From Chitinophagaceae bacterium (GTDB lineage: Bacteria > Bacteroidota > Bacteroidia > Chitinophagales > Chitinophagaceae): 64,000 nt of DNA. The stretch covers positions 1-64,000 of the forward strand of contig SEAD01000018.1 in NCBI GenBank assembly GCA_004173355.1, read 5' to 3'. Shown here piece by piece: positions 21,093 through 30,196 of this stretch. Position numbers and translations under genes: made by a program. The notes beneath the pieces are model-generated. The model saw only the letters and a list, made by a program, of their open reading frames with translations, was not told the DNA's origin and did not search any database. The first letter of the stretch is position 1. Every line of letters starts with the position of its first letter.

Positions 21093-21515
21093 TCACTGCG
21101 GCGGATTCCGCATACTGATAATACTGTCGACAATATACCGGCTGTTACCCCGCCATGGCAGCACACCATTGTATTCCTTGTAATGAAGGTCGAAGATTTT
21201 ACCGCTGTTGAGTTTCAGCACTTCAAATACAGCTTCATCTTTTACCGAAAATTCAAACTCGTTTGACTGGATTGCCCCGGCAGTCTTACTGCGGATCCCT
21301 TCCTGTATCAGCTTGCCTTCATAAGTCTTGAAGATCTGCCCCTTCTTTACTGCAAAATTCAGGTAACCTGATTTTACCCCATCGCTGGTGTAAGGGAAGT
21401 AATACTTCCAGTAGATGAATCCGGCGAGCACCAGCACTCCAACCAGTACAATCGTTAGTACAAATTTCCGGATCCCGGAGAAGTCTGATCGTTTAGCAGG
21501 TTTTATACCTTCCAT
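21093..21515 (-). CDS. Single-pass membrane protein of unknown function
   Basis: A 140-aa protein with a short charged N terminus, one transmembrane helix (residues about 18-36, KFVLTIVLVGVLVLAGFIYW) and an extracytoplasmic beta-rich part (YLNFAVKKGQIFKTYEGKLI, FEFSVKDEAVFEVL, YKEYNGVLPWRGNSRYIVDS). I recognise the general type as conserved in Chitinophagaceae and Cytophagales but know no function. It converges on the methylase gene and diverges from the arginine leader region. Confidence 0.7.
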   Translation of the reverse strand: MEGIKPAKRSDFSGIRKFVLTIVLVGVLVLAGFIYWKYYFPYTSDGVKSGYLNFAVKKGQIFKTYEGKLIQEGIRSKTAGAIQSNEFEFSVKDEAVFEVLKLNSGKIFDLHYKEYNGVLPWRGNSRYIVDSIISMRNPPQ

Positions 21516-21563: not shown

Positions 21564-21571
21564 TAACTTTA
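21564..21571 (+). promoter_or_regulatory. -7 box of the arginine operon leader
   Basis: TAACTTTA resembles the Bacteroidota -7 consensus (one mismatch) and lies 29 nt before the GTG of the candidate leader peptide. No convincing -33 TTTG is seen at the usual distance; a T-run sits at 21536-21540. Confidence 0.35.
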
Positions 21572-21600
21572 CAACCTCAATTTACAATTGTTTTGTAAAC

Positions 21601-21723
21601 GTGAACAATATACTGACACATACCAAGCAATTTGCATTCCATGCACCCATCACCAGCGGCGTTTATGCTGTAGGTTATGATCTCTTTACGTCCAGTTTGC
21701 CGCGACGTCGTCCTGAGTTCTGA
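21601..21723 (+). CDS. Candidate arginine leader peptide
   Basis: A 40-codon frame starting with GTG and ending in PRRRPEF-stop, with three consecutive Arg codons (CGA CGT CGT, 21703-21711) four codons before the stop. It lies just before the arginine biosynthesis genes and overlaps the first arm of a hairpin that competes with a second one (see next entry). This matches the layout of ribosome-mediated attenuators. The frame also has an ordinary-looking peptide upstream (VNNILTHTKQFAFHAPITSG), so it is longer than a minimal leader. Start codon and expression are unproven. Confidence 0.5.
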   Translation: MNNILTHTKQFAFHAPITSGVYAVGYDLFTSSLPRRRPEF

Positions 21724-21781
21724 CAGGACGAACCCCTCACCCCGGTCCCTGTCAGTGAATTTCCCCCCGGAATTTGTTTTT
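21708..21781 (+). promoter_or_regulatory. Candidate transcription attenuator of the arginine operon
   Basis: Hairpin A pairs 21708-21715 (TCGTCCTG) with 21724-21731 (CAGGACGA). Hairpin B pairs 21720-21729 with 21745-21755 (ten pairs, one bulged C). They share 21724-21729, so they exclude each other. A weaker hairpin (about 21757-21775, one bulge) is followed by TTTTT at 21777-21781 and could terminate. The leader's Arg codons lie at the 5' arm of A. The structure was drawn by eye without energy calculation. Confidence 0.45.
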
Positions 21782-21818
21782 AGGAATGGTGGACCTGTTA
21801 TTCTAATTCTTTAACAAA

Positions 21819-22547
21819 GTGGACAATCAGCAGATCATCGTCAGGGTGGCTACCCTCGATGACAAAAAATACTCGACGATCATTACCGACGAAATGGAGG
21901 CATCGGCCAAAGCCCGGGGCACCGGTATCGCCAAACGCTCGCCACAGTATATAGAACAGAAAATCGATGAAGGCAAGGCAGTAATTGCGCTCACCAGAGA
22001 AGGCGATTGGGTCGGATTCTGTTATATCGAAACATGGAGCCATGGCGAATATGTGGCCAACAGCGGACTGATCGTATCACCCAATTTCCGCAAAAGCGGC
22101 GTGGCAAAATCGATCAAGGAACGCATCTTCAAACTATCCCGCGAAAAGTACCCCGATTCAAAAATATTCGGACTTACTACCGGGCTGGCCGTGATGAAAA
22201 TCAACAGCGATCTTGGCTATGAGCCTGTCACCTACTCCGAGCTGACCCAGGATGAAGCTTTCTGGGCGGGCTGCAAAAGTTGTGTGAACTACGAGATATT
22301 GATGGGCAAGGATCGCAAAAACTGTATGTGCACCGCCATGCTTTTCGATCCGAAGGATCATTACAAACCAGAGGAAACACAGGAATATTTTAAGGAGAAT
22401 GCCAAGCTGTTTGAGCGCCTGCTGCGATTCAAACAGTGGAAATTACTGGCACCATTCATGAGAAAGGACAAGGACAAAAAAGACAGTCCGTCCAAAGGTG
22501 GCAGCAGCCGTCCGAAATCTTTGCTGCATTACTTTTTCCATTTTTAA
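21819..22547 (+). CDS. GNAT N-acyltransferase of arginine biosynthesis
   Basis: A 242-aa protein with a GNAT domain in its first two-thirds (VIALTREGDWVGFCYIETWS; acyl-CoA loop region NFRKSGVAKSIKERIF) and a Cys-containing segment after it (GCKSCVNYEI, then CMCTAML). As first gene before argG, it most likely performs the first committed step, acylation of glutamate. In Bacteroidota that may be succinylation rather than acetylation, since the transcarbamylase type seen here uses acyl-ornithine. It starts with GTG at 21819, with no Shine-Dalgarno. The leader and attenuator candidate lie directly upstream. Confidence 0.75.
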   Translation: MDNQQIIVRVATLDDKKYSTIITDEMEASAKARGTGIAKRSPQYIEQKIDEGKAVIALTREGDWVGFCYIETWSHGEYVANSGLIVSPNFRKSGVAKSIKERIFKLSREKYPDSKIFGLTTGLAVMKINSDLGYEPVTYSELTQDEAFWAGCKSCVNYEILMGKDRKNCMCTAMLFDPKDHYKPEETQEYFKENAKLFERLLRFKQWKLLAPFMRKDKDKKDSPSKGGSSRPKSLLHYFFHF

Positions 22548-22560
22548 ACAAGGTTAGCAG

Positions 22561-23760
22561 ATGTCAAAAAAAGTTGTTTTAGGATTCAGCGGGGGATTAG
22601 ATACATCATTTTGTGTGAAATACCTCGCGGGTGACCTGGGCTACGAAGTGCATAGCATTATCGTAAACACAGGTGGCTTCACGGAAGAAGAACTGCGCGC
22701 GGTGGAAGCCCATGCCTACCAGCTGGGTGTAAAAACCCATAAGACCGTCAATGCCGTACACAGCTACTACGACAGCATTATCAAATACCTTATTTACGGA
22801 AACGTATTAAAGAATAACACTTACCCGCTGAGCGTTTCTGCCGAGCGGCTCAGCCAGGCATTACATATCGCTTCCTATGCGGAAGAACTGAATGCTGATG
22901 CGGTGGCACATGGCAGTACTGGTGCGGGTAATGACCAGGTACGTTTTGATATGATTTTCCATATCATGATCCCGGGCGTGGAGATCATCACCCCGATCCG
23001 CGACCTGAAACTTAGTCGTGAAGCGGAGATCGCCTACCTGCAGGAACGTAAGGTGGATATGAATTTTGCCAAAGCAGCCTACTCGATCAATAAGGGTCTC
23101 TGGGGCACCAGCGTTGGTGGCCGAGAGACGCTCTCCTCCAAAGGACTGCTGCCCGAGGAAGCGTGGCCGACACAGGTGACAAAAACAGATGCAGAGGAAG
23201 TAAAACTTCATTTTGAAAAAGGACAACTCACGGCAATCAACGACCAGCCGTTCCGCCATCCATCCGAAGCCATCCAGTACCTGCAGCAGATCGCCGGTGC
23301 TTATGGGATCGGCCGCGACATCCATGTAGGCGATACGATTATCGGTATCAAGGGCCGTGTGGGATTTGAAGCCGCAGCCCCCATGGTGATCCTGAAAGCA
23401 CACCATGCCCTTGAAAAACATGTACTCACCAAATGGCAGCTGAACTGGAAAGACCAGCTGGCTTCATTCTATGGCAACTGGTTACATGAAGGGCAAATCC
23501 TTGATCCGGTGATGCGCGATATCGAGGCTTACCTCGAAACCAGCCAGCGCAACGTCACCGGTGACGTGTTTGTACACCTGCAGCCCTACCGCTTCCAGGT
23601 GATCGGTATCGAAAGCAAATACGACCTGATGAACAGCAAGTTTGGTAAATATGGTGAAATGAATACAGGTTTCACCGGTGATGATGTGAAAGGTTTCAGC
23701 CGGATTTTCGGCAACCAGACCATGATGTATCACCTGGTGAAAACTGATAACGAACAATAA
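22561..23760 (+). CDS. argG: Argininosuccinate synthase
   Basis: Joins citrulline and aspartate with ATP to give argininosuccinate. The N-type ATP pyrophosphatase P-loop is LGFSGGLDTSFCVKYLA. AVAHGSTGAGNDQVRFD is the conserved substrate segment, and the multimerisation domain runs from about residue 190 to the end. Length 399 aa is usual. It starts 13 nt after the GNAT gene and ends 2 nt before argC, inside a tightly spaced arginine operon. Confidence 0.96.
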   Translation: MSKKVVLGFSGGLDTSFCVKYLAGDLGYEVHSIIVNTGGFTEEELRAVEAHAYQLGVKTHKTVNAVHSYYDSIIKYLIYGNVLKNNTYPLSVSAERLSQALHIASYAEELNADAVAHGSTGAGNDQVRFDMIFHIMIPGVEIITPIRDLKLSREAEIAYLQERKVDMNFAKAAYSINKGLWGTSVGGRETLSSKGLLPEEAWPTQVTKTDAEEVKLHFEKGQLTAINDQPFRHPSEAIQYLQQIAGAYGIGRDIHVGDTIIGIKGRVGFEAAAPMVILKAHHALEKHVLTKWQLNWKDQLASFYGNWLHEGQILDPVMRDIEAYLETSQRNVTGDVFVHLQPYRFQVIGIESKYDLMNSKFGKYGEMNTGFTGDDVKGFSRIFGNQTMMYHLVKTDNEQ

Positions 23761-23762
23761 CT

Positions 23763-24740
23763 ATGGCGTTTAAAGTTGGTACCATAGGAGGCGCAGGATA
23801 TACAGGGGGTGAACTGATCCGTTTACTGGTCAACCACCCGGATGTTGAACTGTCATTTATCCATAGCCGGAGTAACGCGGGCCAGCCGGTGCATTCCGTG
23901 CACCAGGACCTGGTGGGTGAAACCGACCTCCGGTTCACCGGGGAACTCAGCACAACGATCGATTTCCTCTTCCTCTGTCTAGGTCATGGCGAATCCAGGA
24001 AATTCCTTGCCGAAAATTCTTTCCCTGATTCCGTACGCATCATCGATCTCGCAAATGATTTCCGGCTCAGGGCTGCGTCCACCGCGGGCAGCCGAAGTTT
24101 TGTGTATGGTTTACCCGAAATCAACCGCGAGGCCATCCGGACCGCACAGAATATTGCCAATCCCGGTTGTTTCGCAACCGCTATCCAGCTGGGCCTGCTG
24201 CCACTGGCAAAAGCAGAAATCCTGAAGGACGTGTACACAACGGGCATTACCGGATCAACCGGTGCAGGCCAGTCACTGTCCGCCTCCTCCCATTTCAGCT
24301 GGCGCTCCAATAATATCCAGGCATACAAAACCCTGACGCACCAGCACCTTGCCGAAATCGGTGAGTCGCTGCTGCAACTCGGACCATCTTCCGAAGTTGA
24401 CCTGTCCTTTGTACCCTGGCGTGGTGATTTCACCCGCGGGATCTTTATCAGTTCAACCGTAGCCACTGACCTGAGCGTGGAAGAACTTTACGTACTTTAT
24501 AATGAATTCTACTCCGGCCATCCGTTTGTAGCGGTTAGCAGGGAACCCGTATTCCTGAAACAGGTGGTCAATACCAACAAGGCCGTGATCCAGCTGGAGA
24601 AAGCCGGGAGTAAACTGGTGGTGCATTCGGCCATCGATAACCTGCTGAAAGGCGCGAGCGGACAGGCAGTGCAGAACATGAACCTGCTGGCCGGTCTCGA
24701 CGAGCGGACCGGACTGCGGCTGAAAGCAAATTATTTTTAA
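23763..24740 (+). CDS. argC: N-acyl-gamma-glutamyl-phosphate reductase
   Basis: NADPH-dependent reduction of N-acyl-glutamyl phosphate to the semialdehyde. The Rossmann glycine motif is GTIGGAGYTGGELIRLL and the catalytic Cys sits in NPGCFATAIQLGLLPL. TGSTGAGQSLSASSHFSWRS is the dimerisation/substrate region. Length 325 aa. It lies 2 nt after argG and is followed by a 119-nt gap before argD, the largest gap in the cluster, where no obvious promoter or terminator was recognised. Confidence 0.95.
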   Translation: MAFKVGTIGGAGYTGGELIRLLVNHPDVELSFIHSRSNAGQPVHSVHQDLVGETDLRFTGELSTTIDFLFLCLGHGESRKFLAENSFPDSVRIIDLANDFRLRAASTAGSRSFVYGLPEINREAIRTAQNIANPGCFATAIQLGLLPLAKAEILKDVYTTGITGSTGAGQSLSASSHFSWRSNNIQAYKTLTHQHLAEIGESLLQLGPSSEVDLSFVPWRGDFTRGIFISSTVATDLSVEELYVLYNEFYSGHPFVAVSREPVFLKQVVNTNKAVIQLEKAGSKLVVHSAIDNLLKGASGQAVQNMNLLAGLDERTGLRLKANYF

Positions 24741-24859
24741 GATAACGGGCAGCGATAACCCGGACAGGCTTGCCATACGATTGATGCAAAAACAGTATTC
24801 CAAAACAACGCGGATTGTCGGGACCTATCATACCCCCGCAGGACGCACAAACTTCCGGT

Positions 24860-26026
24860 ATGAATCTCTTTGATGTCTATCCCCTGCAAGATGTTACCAT
24901 TGTAAAAGCCAAAGGATCCTATGTTTGGGATGACAAAGGCGAACAATACCTCGACCTGTATGGCGGCCATGCCGTGATCAGCATCGGGCATACACATCCG
25001 CACTGGGTGCAGCGCGTGGAAGACCAGCTGGAAAAACTGGCGTTCTATTCCAATTCAGTCAAACTGCCCATCCAGCAGGAACTGGCGACCAAACTGGGAA
25101 AAATTTCCGGGAAAGAAGACTACCAGCTGTTCCTCTGCAACAGTGGCGCGGAAGCAAATGAAAACGCACTCAAACTGGCCTCCTTCCACAACGGTCGCAA
25201 AAAGATAATTGCATTCAGCAAAGCATTCCATGGCCGTACGTCACTGGCAGTAGCCGTGACCGATAATAAAGCCTACACCGCACCCGTCAACGAAACGGAC
25301 AATGTAACCTTCCTGCCCTTCAATGATGAAGCAGCACTGGAAGCAGAATTTAAAAAACATGGTGCGGAAATTTCTTCCGTGATCATCGAAGGGATCCAGG
25401 GTGTGGGTGGTATCAATGTGGCCAGCGACGCATTTCTCAAACTGATCCGTGCGCTCTGCGACAAACATGGTGCAGTATATATCGCCGATTCAGTACAGTG
25501 CGGATATGGTCGCAGCGGGAAATTTTTCAGCCACGATTTCGCAGGTGTCAATGCCGATATCTATACAATGGCCAAGGGAATGGGCAATGGCTTCCCGGTA
25601 GCCGGGCTGATCATCACGCCAGCAATCGCCGCAAAATACTTCCAGCTGGGTACCACATTCGGCGGCAACCCGCTTGCCTGCGCAGCCGCGCTGGCCGTAC
25701 TCGAAACCATTGAAGAAGAAAAACTCATGGGGAATGCAGTGATGATCGGCAAATACCTGCGGGACGAACTGGCAAAAATCCCCGGTATCAAAAATGTCCG
25801 CGGCCGTGGCCTGATGATCGGGTTTGATGTGAGCGAAAAACTGAAGGACCTCCGGAAAAACCTGCTGACGGAACAGAAAATTTTCACCGGCGAAGCAAAA
25901 CCAAACGTCATCCGACTCCTGCCATCACTCGGCCTGAAAAAACGCGATGCCGAATCCCTGATCGAAGCGATCCAGGAAGAAGTGGCGAGGCTCGAAGAAA
26001 CCCCGGCAGCAGCACAGGAAGCATAA
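24860..26026 (+). CDS. argD: N-acyl-ornithine aminotransferase
   Basis: PLP-dependent class III aminotransferase giving N-acyl-ornithine from the semialdehyde. Seen: YLDLYGGHAVISIGHTHPHW, FLCNSGAEANENALKLA, AFHGRTSLA, the PLP-Lys segment YTMAKGMGNGFPVAG, and GTTFGGNPLACAAALAVLE. Length 388 aa from ATG 24860, which begins the conserved MNLFDVYPL; the open frame extends 15 codons further upstream without family similarity. The Gly/Lys loop is canonical. Confidence 0.94.
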   Translation: MNLFDVYPLQDVTIVKAKGSYVWDDKGEQYLDLYGGHAVISIGHTHPHWVQRVEDQLEKLAFYSNSVKLPIQQELATKLGKISGKEDYQLFLCNSGAEANENALKLASFHNGRKKIIAFSKAFHGRTSLAVAVTDNKAYTAPVNETDNVTFLPFNDEAALEAEFKKHGAEISSVIIEGIQGVGGINVASDAFLKLIRALCDKHGAVYIADSVQCGYGRSGKFFSHDFAGVNADIYTMAKGMGNGFPVAGLIITPAIAAKYFQLGTTFGGNPLACAAALAVLETIEEEKLMGNAVMIGKYLRDELAKIPGIKNVRGRGLMIGFDVSEKLKDLRKNLLTEQKIFTGEAKPNVIRLLPSLGLKKRDAESLIEAIQEEVARLEETPAAAQEA

Positions 26027-26044
26027 TATAAAAACAAACATCCA

Positions 26045-27001
26045 GTGAAACAGTTTATCTCTGTTAATGATGTGGATGATATCGATGCCCTCGTAAAACA
26101 GGCGCGTCTTTACAAAGCATCCCCTTATACTGATAACTCCCTTGGCACCAACAAACGCATTGGCTGCCTGTTCCTCAATCCCAGCATGCGCACACGCCTG
26201 AGTACCCAGATTGCAGCGCAGAACCTGGGTATGGAAGCCATTATATTCAATATAGGTAGCGAAGGCTGGGCACTCGAATTCGAGGAAGAAGCGATCATGA
26301 GCGGCTCCACCGTTGAACATGTAAAGGATGCCGCCCCAATTTTCGGGAAGTATTTTGATATCCTCGCCATCCGCACCTTCCCTTCGTTGAAAAACAAGGA
26401 AGATGATTACAGCGAACTTTATATCAGACAGTTTATCAAATACGCAGGGATACCGGTAGTCAGCCTGGAAAGTTCCACGCTCCATCCCCTCCAGTCACTG
26501 ACCGATATCATCACCATTGAAGAGAATATGCCAGTGGGACGCAAGCCGAAGATTGTGCTCAGCTGGGCTCCGCATGTGAAACCATTGCCGCAATGTGTGG
26601 CCAATAGTTTTTCCCAATGGGTCAATGCATGGGGCAAGGCAGATTTTGTGATCACACATCCGGAAGACTATGAATTGAGCGGGGAATTTACCGCAGGCGC
26701 TACCATCACACATAACCAGGACGAAGCGTTGAAAGACGCAGATTTCGTGTATGTGAAAAACTGGAGCACCTATACCGACTATGGCAAGATCTACGAAAGC
26801 GACCCAAAATGGATGCTGACCAATAAAAAACTGGAACAGACCAATAATGCCAGGGTCATGCATTGCCTGCCCGTCAGGAGGAATGTGGAACTGAGCGACG
26901 AAGTACTCGACGGGCCCAACAGCCTTGTCACACAGGAAGCATCCAACCGCGTATGGGCTGCACAGTCGGTGCTTTCACGGATACTCAAAACCAATGGATA
27001 A
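26045..27001 (+). CDS. argF': N-acyl-ornithine (probably succinyl) transcarbamylase
   Basis: A transcarbamylase acting on N-acyl-ornithine rather than ornithine, as in Bacteroides fragilis ArgF' (N-succinylornithine) and Xanthomonas (N-acetyl). The carbamoyl-phosphate loop reads LNPSMRTRLST instead of the OTCase STRTR, and ESSTLHPLQSLTDI and MHCLPVRRNVELSDEVLDGP are typical. The acyl-specificity loop is near GWALEFEEEAIMSG and STVEHVKDAA. Length 318 aa, GTG start at 26045. It overlaps argB by 8 nt. Succinyl preference is inferred from taxonomy and cluster, not from a residue I can verify. Confidence 0.9.
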   Translation: MKQFISVNDVDDIDALVKQARLYKASPYTDNSLGTNKRIGCLFLNPSMRTRLSTQIAAQNLGMEAIIFNIGSEGWALEFEEEAIMSGSTVEHVKDAAPIFGKYFDILAIRTFPSLKNKEDDYSELYIRQFIKYAGIPVVSLESSTLHPLQSLTDIITIEENMPVGRKPKIVLSWAPHVKPLPQCVANSFSQWVNAWGKADFVITHPEDYELSGEFTAGATITHNQDEALKDADFVYVKNWSTYTDYGKIYESDPKWMLTNKKLEQTNNARVMHCLPVRRNVELSDEVLDGPNSLVTQEASNRVWAAQSVLSRILKTNG

Positions 27002-27788
27002 ACTTTATATAATCAAGATCGGTGGTAATATCATCGATAATGAAACGAAGCTGGACAGCTTCCTGAGCGATTTTTCATCCGTTGAAGGAAAAAAAATCCT
27101 CGTCCATGGAGGTGGCAAACTGGCTACCAGGCTCGCCGGACAGATGGGTGTGCAGCAGCAACTGGTGGATGGACGCCGGATCACCGACGCAGAAACACTG
27201 AAGATCGTAACCATGGTGTACGCGGGAGAGATCAACAAGAATATCGTGGCCAGCCTGCAGTCAAAAAACTGCAACGCACTTGGTCTTACCGGCGCCGATG
27301 GGAATGTGATCCTTGCGCACAAACGCCGGCATGCATCGATGGACTATGGATTTGTAGGTGATGTGGATGCCGTCAATTCCGCACTGGTGACGCAGTTGCT
27401 GCAGCTCGGGCTTGCACTGGTTTTTGCACCCCTGACCCACGACCGGCAGGGACAGTTGCTCAACACCAATGCCGATACCATTGCACAGGAACTCGCGAGG
27501 GGGCTCAGCGACAGTTTTGATGTGGAACTGATCTATTCCTTTGAGAAAAAAGGGGTGCTCCTGGATGCAAATGATGATGATACTGTAATCCCCCGGATCA
27601 GCCCTGCTTACTACCAGGAACTGAAGTCGGAAAAGAAAATATTTGAAGGCATGATCCCGAAGATGGACAATGCCTTTACGGCCCTCAACAGTGGCGTGCG
27701 GAAAGTGATCATTGGCAATGCCGAGGAACTTCCCGCGCTGGTGCAGGGCATGGCAGGTACCACGATCTCCCTGGAAGAAAACAGATGA
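26994..27788 (+). CDS. argB: N-acyl-glutamate kinase
   Basis: Amino-acid kinase that phosphorylates N-acyl-glutamate. Motifs: YIIKIGGNIIDN, ILVHGGGKLATRLAGQMG, NALGLTGADGNVI, LNTNADTIAQELA and GVRKVIIGNAEEL. Length 264 aa is typical. The start is ATG 26994, overlapping the last 8 nt of the transcarbamylase gene (translational coupling). The open frame extends upstream through that gene but is not family-like there. The argE/argH fusion follows 71 nt later. Confidence 0.95.
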   Translation: MDKLYIIKIGGNIIDNETKLDSFLSDFSSVEGKKILVHGGGKLATRLAGQMGVQQQLVDGRRITDAETLKIVTMVYAGEINKNIVASLQSKNCNALGLTGADGNVILAHKRRHASMDYGFVGDVDAVNSALVTQLLQLGLALVFAPLTHDRQGQLLNTNADTIAQELARGLSDSFDVELIYSFEKKGVLLDANDDDTVIPRISPAYYQELKSEKKIFEGMIPKMDNAFTALNSGVRKVIIGNAEELPALVQGMAGTTISLEENR

Positions 27789-27859
27789 GCTGCTGATGAA
27801 TGGATCCCGGCAGCAACAGGTCCTGTAAGCCAGGCGACATACGCGTTAAAGCGGAAATT

Positions 27860-30196
27860 ATGAGCGGAAAAACGGATACATATTTTGATTCACTGGCCCC
27901 TGCATCACTCAACCAGCTGGCGGATGATGCAGTAAAATTGCTGTCATCCCTGATCAGCACCCCTTCCTTCAGCAGGGAAGAACGGGACACCGCAGCGATC
28001 CTCAGCACCTTCCTCGAAGCCCGGGGTGTGCAGGTCGAACGGCTGGGCAATAACGTATCTGCCCGCAACCTCCATTTCGACAGCACAAAACCTACCATAC
28101 TGCTCAACTCACACCATGATACCGTCAAACCCAATCCGCAATACAGCAGGGATCCTTTCTCCCCGATAGTGGAAGACGGGAAATTATACGGTCTTGGTTC
28201 CAATGATGCCGGCGGTTGCCTTGTGGCACTGCTGGCGGTATTCCTGCACTATTACCAACGGACCGACCTGCGGTACAACTTCTTTTTTGCCGCAACAGCG
28301 GAAGAAGAGATTTCCGGTACGGGTGGTATCGAACTGCTGTTGCCACAACTGCCACCGATCGATTTTGCGATTGTCGGTGAACCCACACTGCTGCAGATGG
28401 CCGTGGCAGAACGCGGACTGATGGTGCTGGATTGCATCAGCCAGGGCCGTGCCGGCCATGCCGCGCGGAATGAAGGCGAGAATGCGCTATACAAGGCAAT
28501 AGATGATATCAACTGGTTCAGGAATTATACGTTTGATGAAGTATCACCCCTGCTTGGCCCGTCGAGGATGAATGTAACAGTGGTCGAAACCGGTAACAAA
28601 GCGCATAATGTTGTACCCGACTCCTGCCACTTTGTAGTGGATGTCCGGGTAAACGAATTATATACATTTGAGGAAGTCCTTGAATTGGTGAGGCAGCATA
28701 CTTCCTCCGATGTGAAAGCCCGTAGCATGCGGCTCCGGAGCACTTCCATCCCGCTGGATCATCCGGTTGTAAAAGCCGGGAGCAGTCTTGGCCGGAGCCA
28801 TTATGGTTCACCCACCACATCCGACAAGGCACTGATGCCATTCCTTTCGCTGAAGATGGGACCTGGTGATTCCGCCCGCAGCCATACCGCAGATGAGTAT
28901 ATTTACATCCGCGAAATTGGTGAAGGCATGGAAATGGATCAGTACCTTGCAGCGTTTGATGTGCTGGGATCACTGGCACATACCCAGATGCTGAAATCGG
29001 TTGGCCTGCTCACGAAAGATGAGTGGTTGTCACTTCAGACGGAATTACGTGCTATCTACAAACAGGTGGCGGAAGGCGGCTTCACATTACAGGATGATGT
29101 GGAGGATATCCATTCACAGGTGGAACTGCTGCTGACCGAACGACTGGGTGATACGGGTAAAAAAATCCATAGCGCCCGCAGCCGCAACGACCAGGTACTG
29201 GTGGATATAAAACTATACCTGCGGCATGAACTGGAAGAAACGGCGAACGCAGTATTACCCTTTTTTACTTTACTGCAGGAACAAAGCGAAAAATATAAAG
29301 GTCATCTCTTTCCGGGTTATACCCATTTGCAGCTGGCCATGCCTTCCTCCTTTGGACTCTGGTTTGGCGCTTATGCCGAAAGCCTCGTTGACGACCTGAT
29401 TACGCTCCGCGCAGCATATGATGTGGTGAATAAAAATCCGCTTGGCTCCGCAGCCGGGTATGGATCTTCCTTTCCGATCAACCGTACGCTGACCACTTCC
29501 CTGCTGGGTTTCGAAGACCTGAATTACAATGTGGTATATGCACAGATGGGTCGGGGCAAAGCCGAACGGATTGTTGCACAGTCCATCGCCAACATCGCCG
29601 ATACACTTGCACGCCTCAGCATGGATGCCTGCCTCTACCTCAACCAGAACTTCGGGTTTGTGAGTTTCCCGCCGGAACTGACCACAGGCAGCAGCATCAT
29701 GCCGCATAAAAAAAACCCGGATGTGTTTGAGCTGATCCGTTCGCATTGCAACCGCCTCCGCGCATTACCGAATGAAATCATGATGATGACCACCAACCTG
29801 CCATCCGGTTACCATCGCGACCTGCAATTGCTGAAAGAACACCTGTTCCCCGCATTTGCCCAGTTGCGTTATTGCCTGCAGATGGCCGGACTGATGCTCT
29901 CCAATATTTCCATCCAGGAAAATATCCTGCAGGATGAGAAATACAAATACCTGTTTAGTGTGGAAGAAGTAAATAAACTTGTACTCGATGGCACTGCTTT
30001 CCGTGATGCCTATAAAAAAGTCGGACTGGAAATCGAAGCGGGGAATTTTACCTACGATACCAACGTGAACCATACGCATGAAGGGAGCATAGGCAACCTC
30101 AACACAAAAGAAATCGCTGCGCAGATGACGCGGGTAATGGATTCTTTCCCGTTTGATAAAGTGAATGGGGCTATTGCAAAACTGGCGGGGATCTGA
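27860..30196 (+). CDS. argE-argH: ArgE-type deacylase fused to argininosuccinate lyase
   Basis: One uninterrupted 778-codon frame. Residues 1 to about 358 are an M20 N-acyl-ornithine/citrulline deacylase with all metal-site motifs (LLNSHHDTVKP, LGSNDAGGC, TAEEEISGTGG, IVGEPT, ARSHTADEYIY). Residues about 359-778 are argininosuccinate lyase with SARSRNDQVLVDI, FPGYTHLQLAMPSSFG and signature TGSSIMPHKKNPDVFEL. At the joint (28925-28940, GMEMDQYLAAFDVLGS) the usual last dozen or so residues of ArgE, the intergenic DNA and roughly the first 25-30 residues of ArgH are absent. It may be a genuine fusion, a recent in-frame deletion, or an assembly error. Start chosen at ATG 27860. Confidence 0.88.
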   Translation: MSGKTDTYFDSLAPASLNQLADDAVKLLSSLISTPSFSREERDTAAILSTFLEARGVQVERLGNNVSARNLHFDSTKPTILLNSHHDTVKPNPQYSRDPFSPIVEDGKLYGLGSNDAGGCLVALLAVFLHYYQRTDLRYNFFFAATAEEEISGTGGIELLLPQLPPIDFAIVGEPTLLQMAVAERGLMVLDCISQGRAGHAARNEGENALYKAIDDINWFRNYTFDEVSPLLGPSRMNVTVVETGNKAHNVVPDSCHFVVDVRVNELYTFEEVLELVRQHTSSDVKARSMRLRSTSIPLDHPVVKAGSSLGRSHYGSPTTSDKALMPFLSLKMGPGDSARSHTADEYIYIREIGEGMEMDQYLAAFDVLGSLAHTQMLKSVGLLTKDEWLSLQTELRAIYKQVAEGGFTLQDDVEDIHSQVELLLTERLGDTGKKIHSARSRNDQVLVDIKLYLRHELEETANAVLPFFTLLQEQSEKYKGHLFPGYTHLQLAMPSSFGLWFGAYAESLVDDLITLRAAYDVVNKNPLGSAAGYGSSFPINRTLTTSLLGFEDLNYNVVYAQMGRGKAERIVAQSIANIADTLARLSMDACLYLNQNFGFVSFPPELTTGSSIMPHKKNPDVFELIRSHCNRLRALPNEIMMMTTNLPSGYHRDLQLLKEHLFPAFAQLRYCLQMAGLMLSNISIQENILQDEKYKYLFSVEEVNKLVLDGTAFRDAYKKVGLEIEAGNFTYDTNVNHTHEGSIGNLNTKEIAAQMTRVMDSFPFDKVNGAIAKLAGI

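Follow-up and report, generated by a model that had tools for sequence, protein, structure and literature searches.

Arginine synthesis is usually described as being under repressor control, and the locus discussed here raises the question of how it is governed in Chitinophagales, where the ArgR domain (PF01316) was found in 0 of 61 genomes, with 9 of 14 control genomes positive. The window, by which I mean the whole stretch of DNA analyzed, is 64,000 nucleotides long (positions 1-64,000 of contig SEAD01000018.1, assembly GCA_004173355.1, forward strand), and a small open reading frame (ORF) sits in it between a divergent ORF, whose end lies at 21515, and the start of a GNAT gene at 21819. A sequence-only reading of this DNA had described a 40-codon frame with the ending PRRRPEF-stop and three Arg codons in a row (21703-21711) ahead of arginine genes; frame and codons stand in the sequence as described, and the nature of the downstream genes is borne out by Pfam matches. 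The features needed at the outset are the following.

21564..21571, + strand: promoter -7-like motif, TAACTTTA, after the Bacteroidota TAnnTTTG, with a deviating final base
21601..21723, + strand: leader ORF, 40 codons plus stop, GTG start, peptide end ...LPRRRPEF
21703..21711, + strand: putative control codons CGA CGT CGT (Arg-Arg-Arg), in a conserved Arg tail
21721..21723, + strand: leader stop UGA (TGA in the DNA), within the 5' arm of hairpin B, its position identical in all class I sequences
21819..22547, + strand: first gene of the operon, a GNAT-family acetyltransferase (PF00583)
22561..30196, + strand: argG, argC, class-III aminotransferase, carbamoyltransferase, AA-kinase (argB type) and argE+argH type, by Pfam matches

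The GNAT product probably performs the acetylation step of arginine synthesis, and its gene is kept in 194 of 246 genomes of the family. The protein has a conserved cysteine-rich stretch (CKSCVNYEIL...KNCMCTAM) outside the acetyltransferase domain, and at the far end of the operon a single 798-aa ORF (window 27800-30196) combines an M20 peptidase domain (argE type) with a lyase domain (argH type). Second, more distant GNAT copies occur in genomes G031, G017 and G028 (L240, L241, L242), and no Arg-tailed ORF was found in the regions upstream of these three.

Among the 27 distinct leaders that can be aligned to that of the window across 40 codons, the first codon is always ATG, GTG or TTG, base differences within the body cluster at third positions (5277 versus 1193 and 1034 at the others), and 86% of the single-base codon changes in these close relatives are synonymous where 23% would be expected. 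By this evolutionary signature the leader ORF is protein-coding, its translation being a prediction. The promoter motif, in the form TAnnTTT[GA], precedes 97% of class I leaders (the class of the window; 29% in shuffles) and 100% of class II leaders (34% in shuffles), with no clear excess ahead of class III leaders (30% versus 22%); its place upstream of the leader in class I counters a transcription start downstream of 21723, on which the sequence-only reading had been prepared to fall. The locus is therefore like the trp/his-type attenuators in having a short leader ORF, predicted to be translated, between a promoter motif and the first structural gene. An inverted repeat (TTTACAA-TTGTT-TTGTAAA, window 21580-21598) lies between the promoter motif and the leader start and may represent an operator or a 5' stem; similar repeats occur in L002 and L003.

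How widely the leader is kept was assessed in GNAT upstream regions from about 200 genomes of the family, of which 202 were classified. A small ORF with Arg codons near its stop precedes the GNAT-argG operon in 198 of the 202, and these leaders fall into three classes. Class I tails (RRRPEF, RRRPVF, PRPRRGC and similar) are found, for example, in Terrimonas pollutisoli (L135), Niabella drilacis (L147), Pinibacter soli (L155), Flavihumibacter petaseus (L159) and Sediminibacterium species (L171, L181, L189), the class II tail RRPRI in Foetidibacter luteolus (L158) and Ilyomonas limi (L213), and the class III tail VRR in Agriterribacter humi (L172), Puia dinghuensis (L166) and Longitalea luteola (L190). 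At least two Arg lie within the last nine codons of 98-100% of distinct tails, where the Arg frequency of the window would predict about 7%, and a conserved run of codons for the operon's own amino acid, judged here from the sequences, is again what trp/his-type leaders have. In other Bacteroidota families, Arg-tailed ORFs upstream of GNAT end, for example, in TRRCRPARFVRI (L217), SRRRPYMPRA (L221) and LRRNRFTFRV (L220), and the same search found none at L226, L227, L229 and L231. CGA makes up only 4% of the Arg codons in window genes, yet in the tails of classes I and II it is used more than any other Arg codon, and 95% of the Arg codons in class I tails are CGA, CGT or CGC compared with 58% in window genes, a bias that would suggest a single tRNA-Arg; the tRNA loci examined from the window's draft genome (G000) included none with anticodon ACG, and tRNA-Arg with anticodons TCT and CCG were present. 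Within the ORF of class III leaders, 5' of the last Arg codons, lies a terminator-like hairpin with a U run behind it (e.g., CUGUACGGCUCCGUACAGUUUUUU; examples L015, L016, L021, L069), seen in 91% of these leaders versus 21% of shuffles, and the hairpin may act as a pause site through which ribosome and polymerase are coupled.

The RNA that follows the Arg codons contains the elements from which a switch might be built.

21708..21731, + strand: hairpin A, -12.0 kcal/mol, present in the window, unconserved
21720..21755, + strand: hairpin B (2:3, the candidate antiterminator), -12.6 kcal/mol, with stems 21720-21727 with 21748-21755 and, inside, 21732-21734 with 21744-21746, and a conserved internal loop ACGA
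21737..21741, + strand: loop motif UCACC (consensus UNACC), covarying with 21788-21792
21744..21753, + strand: segment 3, common to hairpin B and the 3:4 helix
21783..21795, + strand: segment 4 (GGAAUGGUGGACC, that is GGAATGGTGGACC; consensus GGAYUGGUNAUCC), with an imperfect U-rich stretch after it

Folding the region with energy models, as had been proposed, did not help the case: with a z of 0.06, the local fold of 101 nucleotides does not exceed shuffled sequence in stability, and the evidence is therefore comparative rather than thermodynamic. Across 41 class I sequences the pairing of hairpin B is 100%, eight of them carrying a double change from C-G to U-A, and the inner stem alternates between A-U and G-C, 18 each, so that both the Arg run and the B pairing have proved to be conserved in relatives. 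That the leader UGA lies inside the 5' arm of B in every class I sequence is the key feature, one that the sequence-only reading had not mentioned. The sequence-only reading had hairpins A and B competing; both exist in the window and exclude each other, but A is paired in 64.3% of cells in class I compared with 64.6% in shuffles and was rejected as a part of the switch, and the predicted competitor of B is segment 4. Similarly, the weak hairpin followed by five T that had been noted ahead of the first gene can be found near 21762-21781, but at -1.5 kcal/mol and unconserved it was rejected as a terminator, and the conserved downstream element is 21783-21795 instead, where GGA.UGGU..CC is maintained in class I. 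The base before ACC in the loop of B covaries with the base after GGU in segment 4 (C-G, U-A, G-C and A-U are all seen); this pair, in UNACC/GGUNA, is the strongest long-range one outside hairpin B. Class I sequences are related, and shuffle counts alone would therefore overstate its significance; on a GNAT tree the pair shows seven compensatory changes, and 0.27% of control column pairs reach as many. A covariance model built on the class I element (79.8 bits) matches 13 of 61 relatives, with exactly one match in each and always at the GNAT-argG operon.

The effect of a ribosome was modeled by masked folding, in which the RNA 3' of the ribosome is folded and the ribosome-covered stretch is left out. 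With the ribosome on the Arg codons, hairpin B forms with a probability of 0.93 in the window and 0.96 on average, where 3:4 pairing is 0.00, and with the ribosome on the stop the 3:4 pairing reaches 0.48 on average and 0.71 in the window, where GGUCCCUGUC (21744-21753) pairs with 21784-21795 at -12.0 kcal/mol. When a sequence's own partners are compared with species-swapped ones, the loop with segment 4 gives z -3.8, the whole of segment 3 with segment 4 gives z -2.4, and the B arm alone (50-61 with segment 4) is weak at z -1.4. Hairpins that depend on the ribosome and precede a U-rich stretch are enriched at 0.32 versus 0.08 in class I and 0.30 versus 0.08 in class II, and class III shows no simulated ribosome-dependent switch (0.04 versus 0.05). 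By eye, class II loci L014, L066 and L074 have the textbook arrangement; in L066 a stop-bearing segment, UGAUA..CCUU, faces AAGG..UUAUCA, which competes with a hairpin that is followed by a U-rich stretch. In these models an antiterminator is overlapped by the stop and the position of the ribosome would pick the fold, as in trp/his-type attenuators, and they support hairpin B as the likely antiterminator, with a competitor that lies further downstream, in segment 4; hairpin A, unconserved as it is, is dispensable to this scheme.

I consider it likely that ribosome-mediated attenuation controls the arginine operon, with charged Arg-tRNA as the signal sensed, as the sequence-only reading had suggested; the position of the leader, the identity of its codons, the alternative folds and the lack of ArgR are all in keeping with control through the supply of arginyl-tRNA. 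The leader ORF would be transcribed and translated and, when charged Arg-tRNA is scarce, the ribosome would stall on the terminal Arg codons just 5' of hairpin B, so that B (2:3) could form and transcription run on into the arg genes. A ribosome that reaches the stop would free the 3' arm of B, allowing segment 3, together with the loop ACC, to pair with segment 4, and this 3:4 pairing would end the transcript early. Ribosome stalling and the response to arginine are presumed in this scheme, and I infer that the OFF state would be premature transcription termination, either intrinsic or Rho-aided. A strict scan for intrinsic terminators gives 0.41 versus 0.08 in class II and no enrichment after class I leaders (0.06 versus 0.10 in shuffles), and since class I has no strict intrinsic terminator, its OFF state may need Rho or the loop contact. 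The loop covariation could reflect a kissing loop rather than a nested helix of segments 3 and 4; this is not the sole reading, because the same bases also form the nested helix when the 5' arm of B is masked.

The lack of a strict intrinsic terminator in class I also leaves room for a different output from the same sensor, in which the leader ribosome governs access by Rho, attack by RNase or translation of the first gene, and Salmonella speF, with its two consecutive Arg codons and its use of Rho and RNase G, provides a precedent (PMC6386406). I find this rather unlikely, since ribosome-dependent hairpins before U-rich stretches are present in classes I and II and since the start region of GNAT is no more accessible with the ribosome stalled (0.53) than at the stop (0.55); control by hiding the GNAT start was rejected, its accessibility being unchanged in the needed direction. 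A quite improbable option is that the leader encodes a nascent-chain arrest peptide, with free arginine or ornithine being sensed inside the ribosome tunnel, as might be suggested by selection at the amino-acid level on the body within the window's clade and by the residues that recur after RR in the tails (PEF, PVF, GC, PRI). However, taken over the whole of class I the body is unconserved and the spacing between RR and the stop ranges from 0 to 3 codons, unlike fixed-position arrest peptides, so that neither the conserved residues nor the fixed distances expected of such a peptide were found in class I, and a ribosome arrested by arginine close to the stop would, moreover, cover hairpin B.

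Alternatively, hairpin B of class I could itself bind a ligand or a protein in the manner of a riboswitch, with the ORF secondary, and its stem and internal loop ACGA are indeed near-invariant beyond the needs of pairing. Yet Rfam (T-box, riboswitches and amino-acid leaders) gave no match over the leader, whether at the gathering score or with E allowed up to 10, and in classes II and III the Arg tail persists where the hairpin B element is missing, making the Arg codons the constant part and this explanation very improbable indeed. Finally, a chance ORF beside chance hairpins would account for a local fold that is no more stable than shuffled sequence, but this is hardly conceivable and already refuted by the comparative data, namely conservation over about 200 genomes, the synonymous bias and the covariation. 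The attenuator is favored by the Arg-tailed leaders, the coding signature, the covariation of B, its inner stem and the loop, the masked folding, the ribosome-dependent hairpins of classes I and II, the occurrence of the element once per genome at the arg operon and the ArgR-less state of Chitinophagales. Counted against it are the negative strict terminator scan in class I, the weak pairing of the B arm alone, class III without a simulated switch and the possibility that the loop covariation marks a kissing loop.

Compared with known systems, the locus shares with the trp-type scheme of E. coli trpL/hisL (PMC1183508) a short leader, here predicted to be translated, in which codons for the product of the operon stand near the end, a stop placed so that a ribosome on it would mask segment 2, and, by the folding models, a choice between 2:3 and 3:4 pairing. 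It differs in that those leaders serve tryptophan and histidine, whereas here the amino acid is arginine, the phylum is Bacteroidota and the codons include the rare CGA, and in that class I has its stop inside the antiterminator arm and a covarying loop contact without a strong intrinsic terminator. In Salmonella orf34/speF, a small upstream ORF with consecutive Arg codons likewise precedes alternative structures, and the translation rate under low or high arginine selects the RNA structure (PMC6386406); however, that leader controls an ornithine decarboxylase (polyamines) via Rho and RNase G, and no sequence relation was seen. Arg codons in the leader peptide of Staphylococcus aureus rbfL also sense arginine limitation (PMC13009471), but there the control is translational, with the rbf ribosome-binding site blocked and pausing turning the gene OFF. 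For Bacteroidota, one paper speaks broadly of leader peptides attenuating amino-acid operons in Flavobacterium psychrophilum (PMC9723704), and in the open-access literature that I searched I found no earlier report of an arginine-codon attenuator of an arginine biosynthesis operon. What is described here is a genuine and conserved arginine-codon leader that most likely belongs to a trp-type attenuator, with a possible structural twist in class I.

Repression by ArgR/AhrC is likewise a feedback control of arginine biosynthesis and ArgR occurs in other Bacteroidota, but it needs an ArgR gene, which is absent from 61 of 61 Chitinophagales. In a sample of 296 Bacteroidota genomes, ArgR was present in 110 and the GNAT gene in 126, and the two occurred together in only four among the genomes listed, two of these with weak ArgR matches. 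Two genomes of family f31 that have both genes (G491 and G499) carry ArgR within about 350 bases upstream of GNAT and, as ArgR adjoins the 5' side of GNAT, repressor and leader look like alternatives for the same place. A bolder proposal, which I hold only tentatively, as possible rather than probable, is that a phylum-wide family of arginine attenuators replaces ArgR in many Bacteroidota and that class I decides through a kissing-loop or pseudoknot contact of the antiterminator loop (UNACC) with the GGUNA hairpin downstream, not a classical intrinsic terminator. Apart from this proposal, a large group of ArgR-less Bacteroidota appears to rely on a leader peptide; such an attenuator would explain how they control arginine synthesis and would provide a sequence-defined, arginine-responsive switch for a phylum with few known switches of this kind, and the exchange between repressor and attenuator would become testable through phylogeny.
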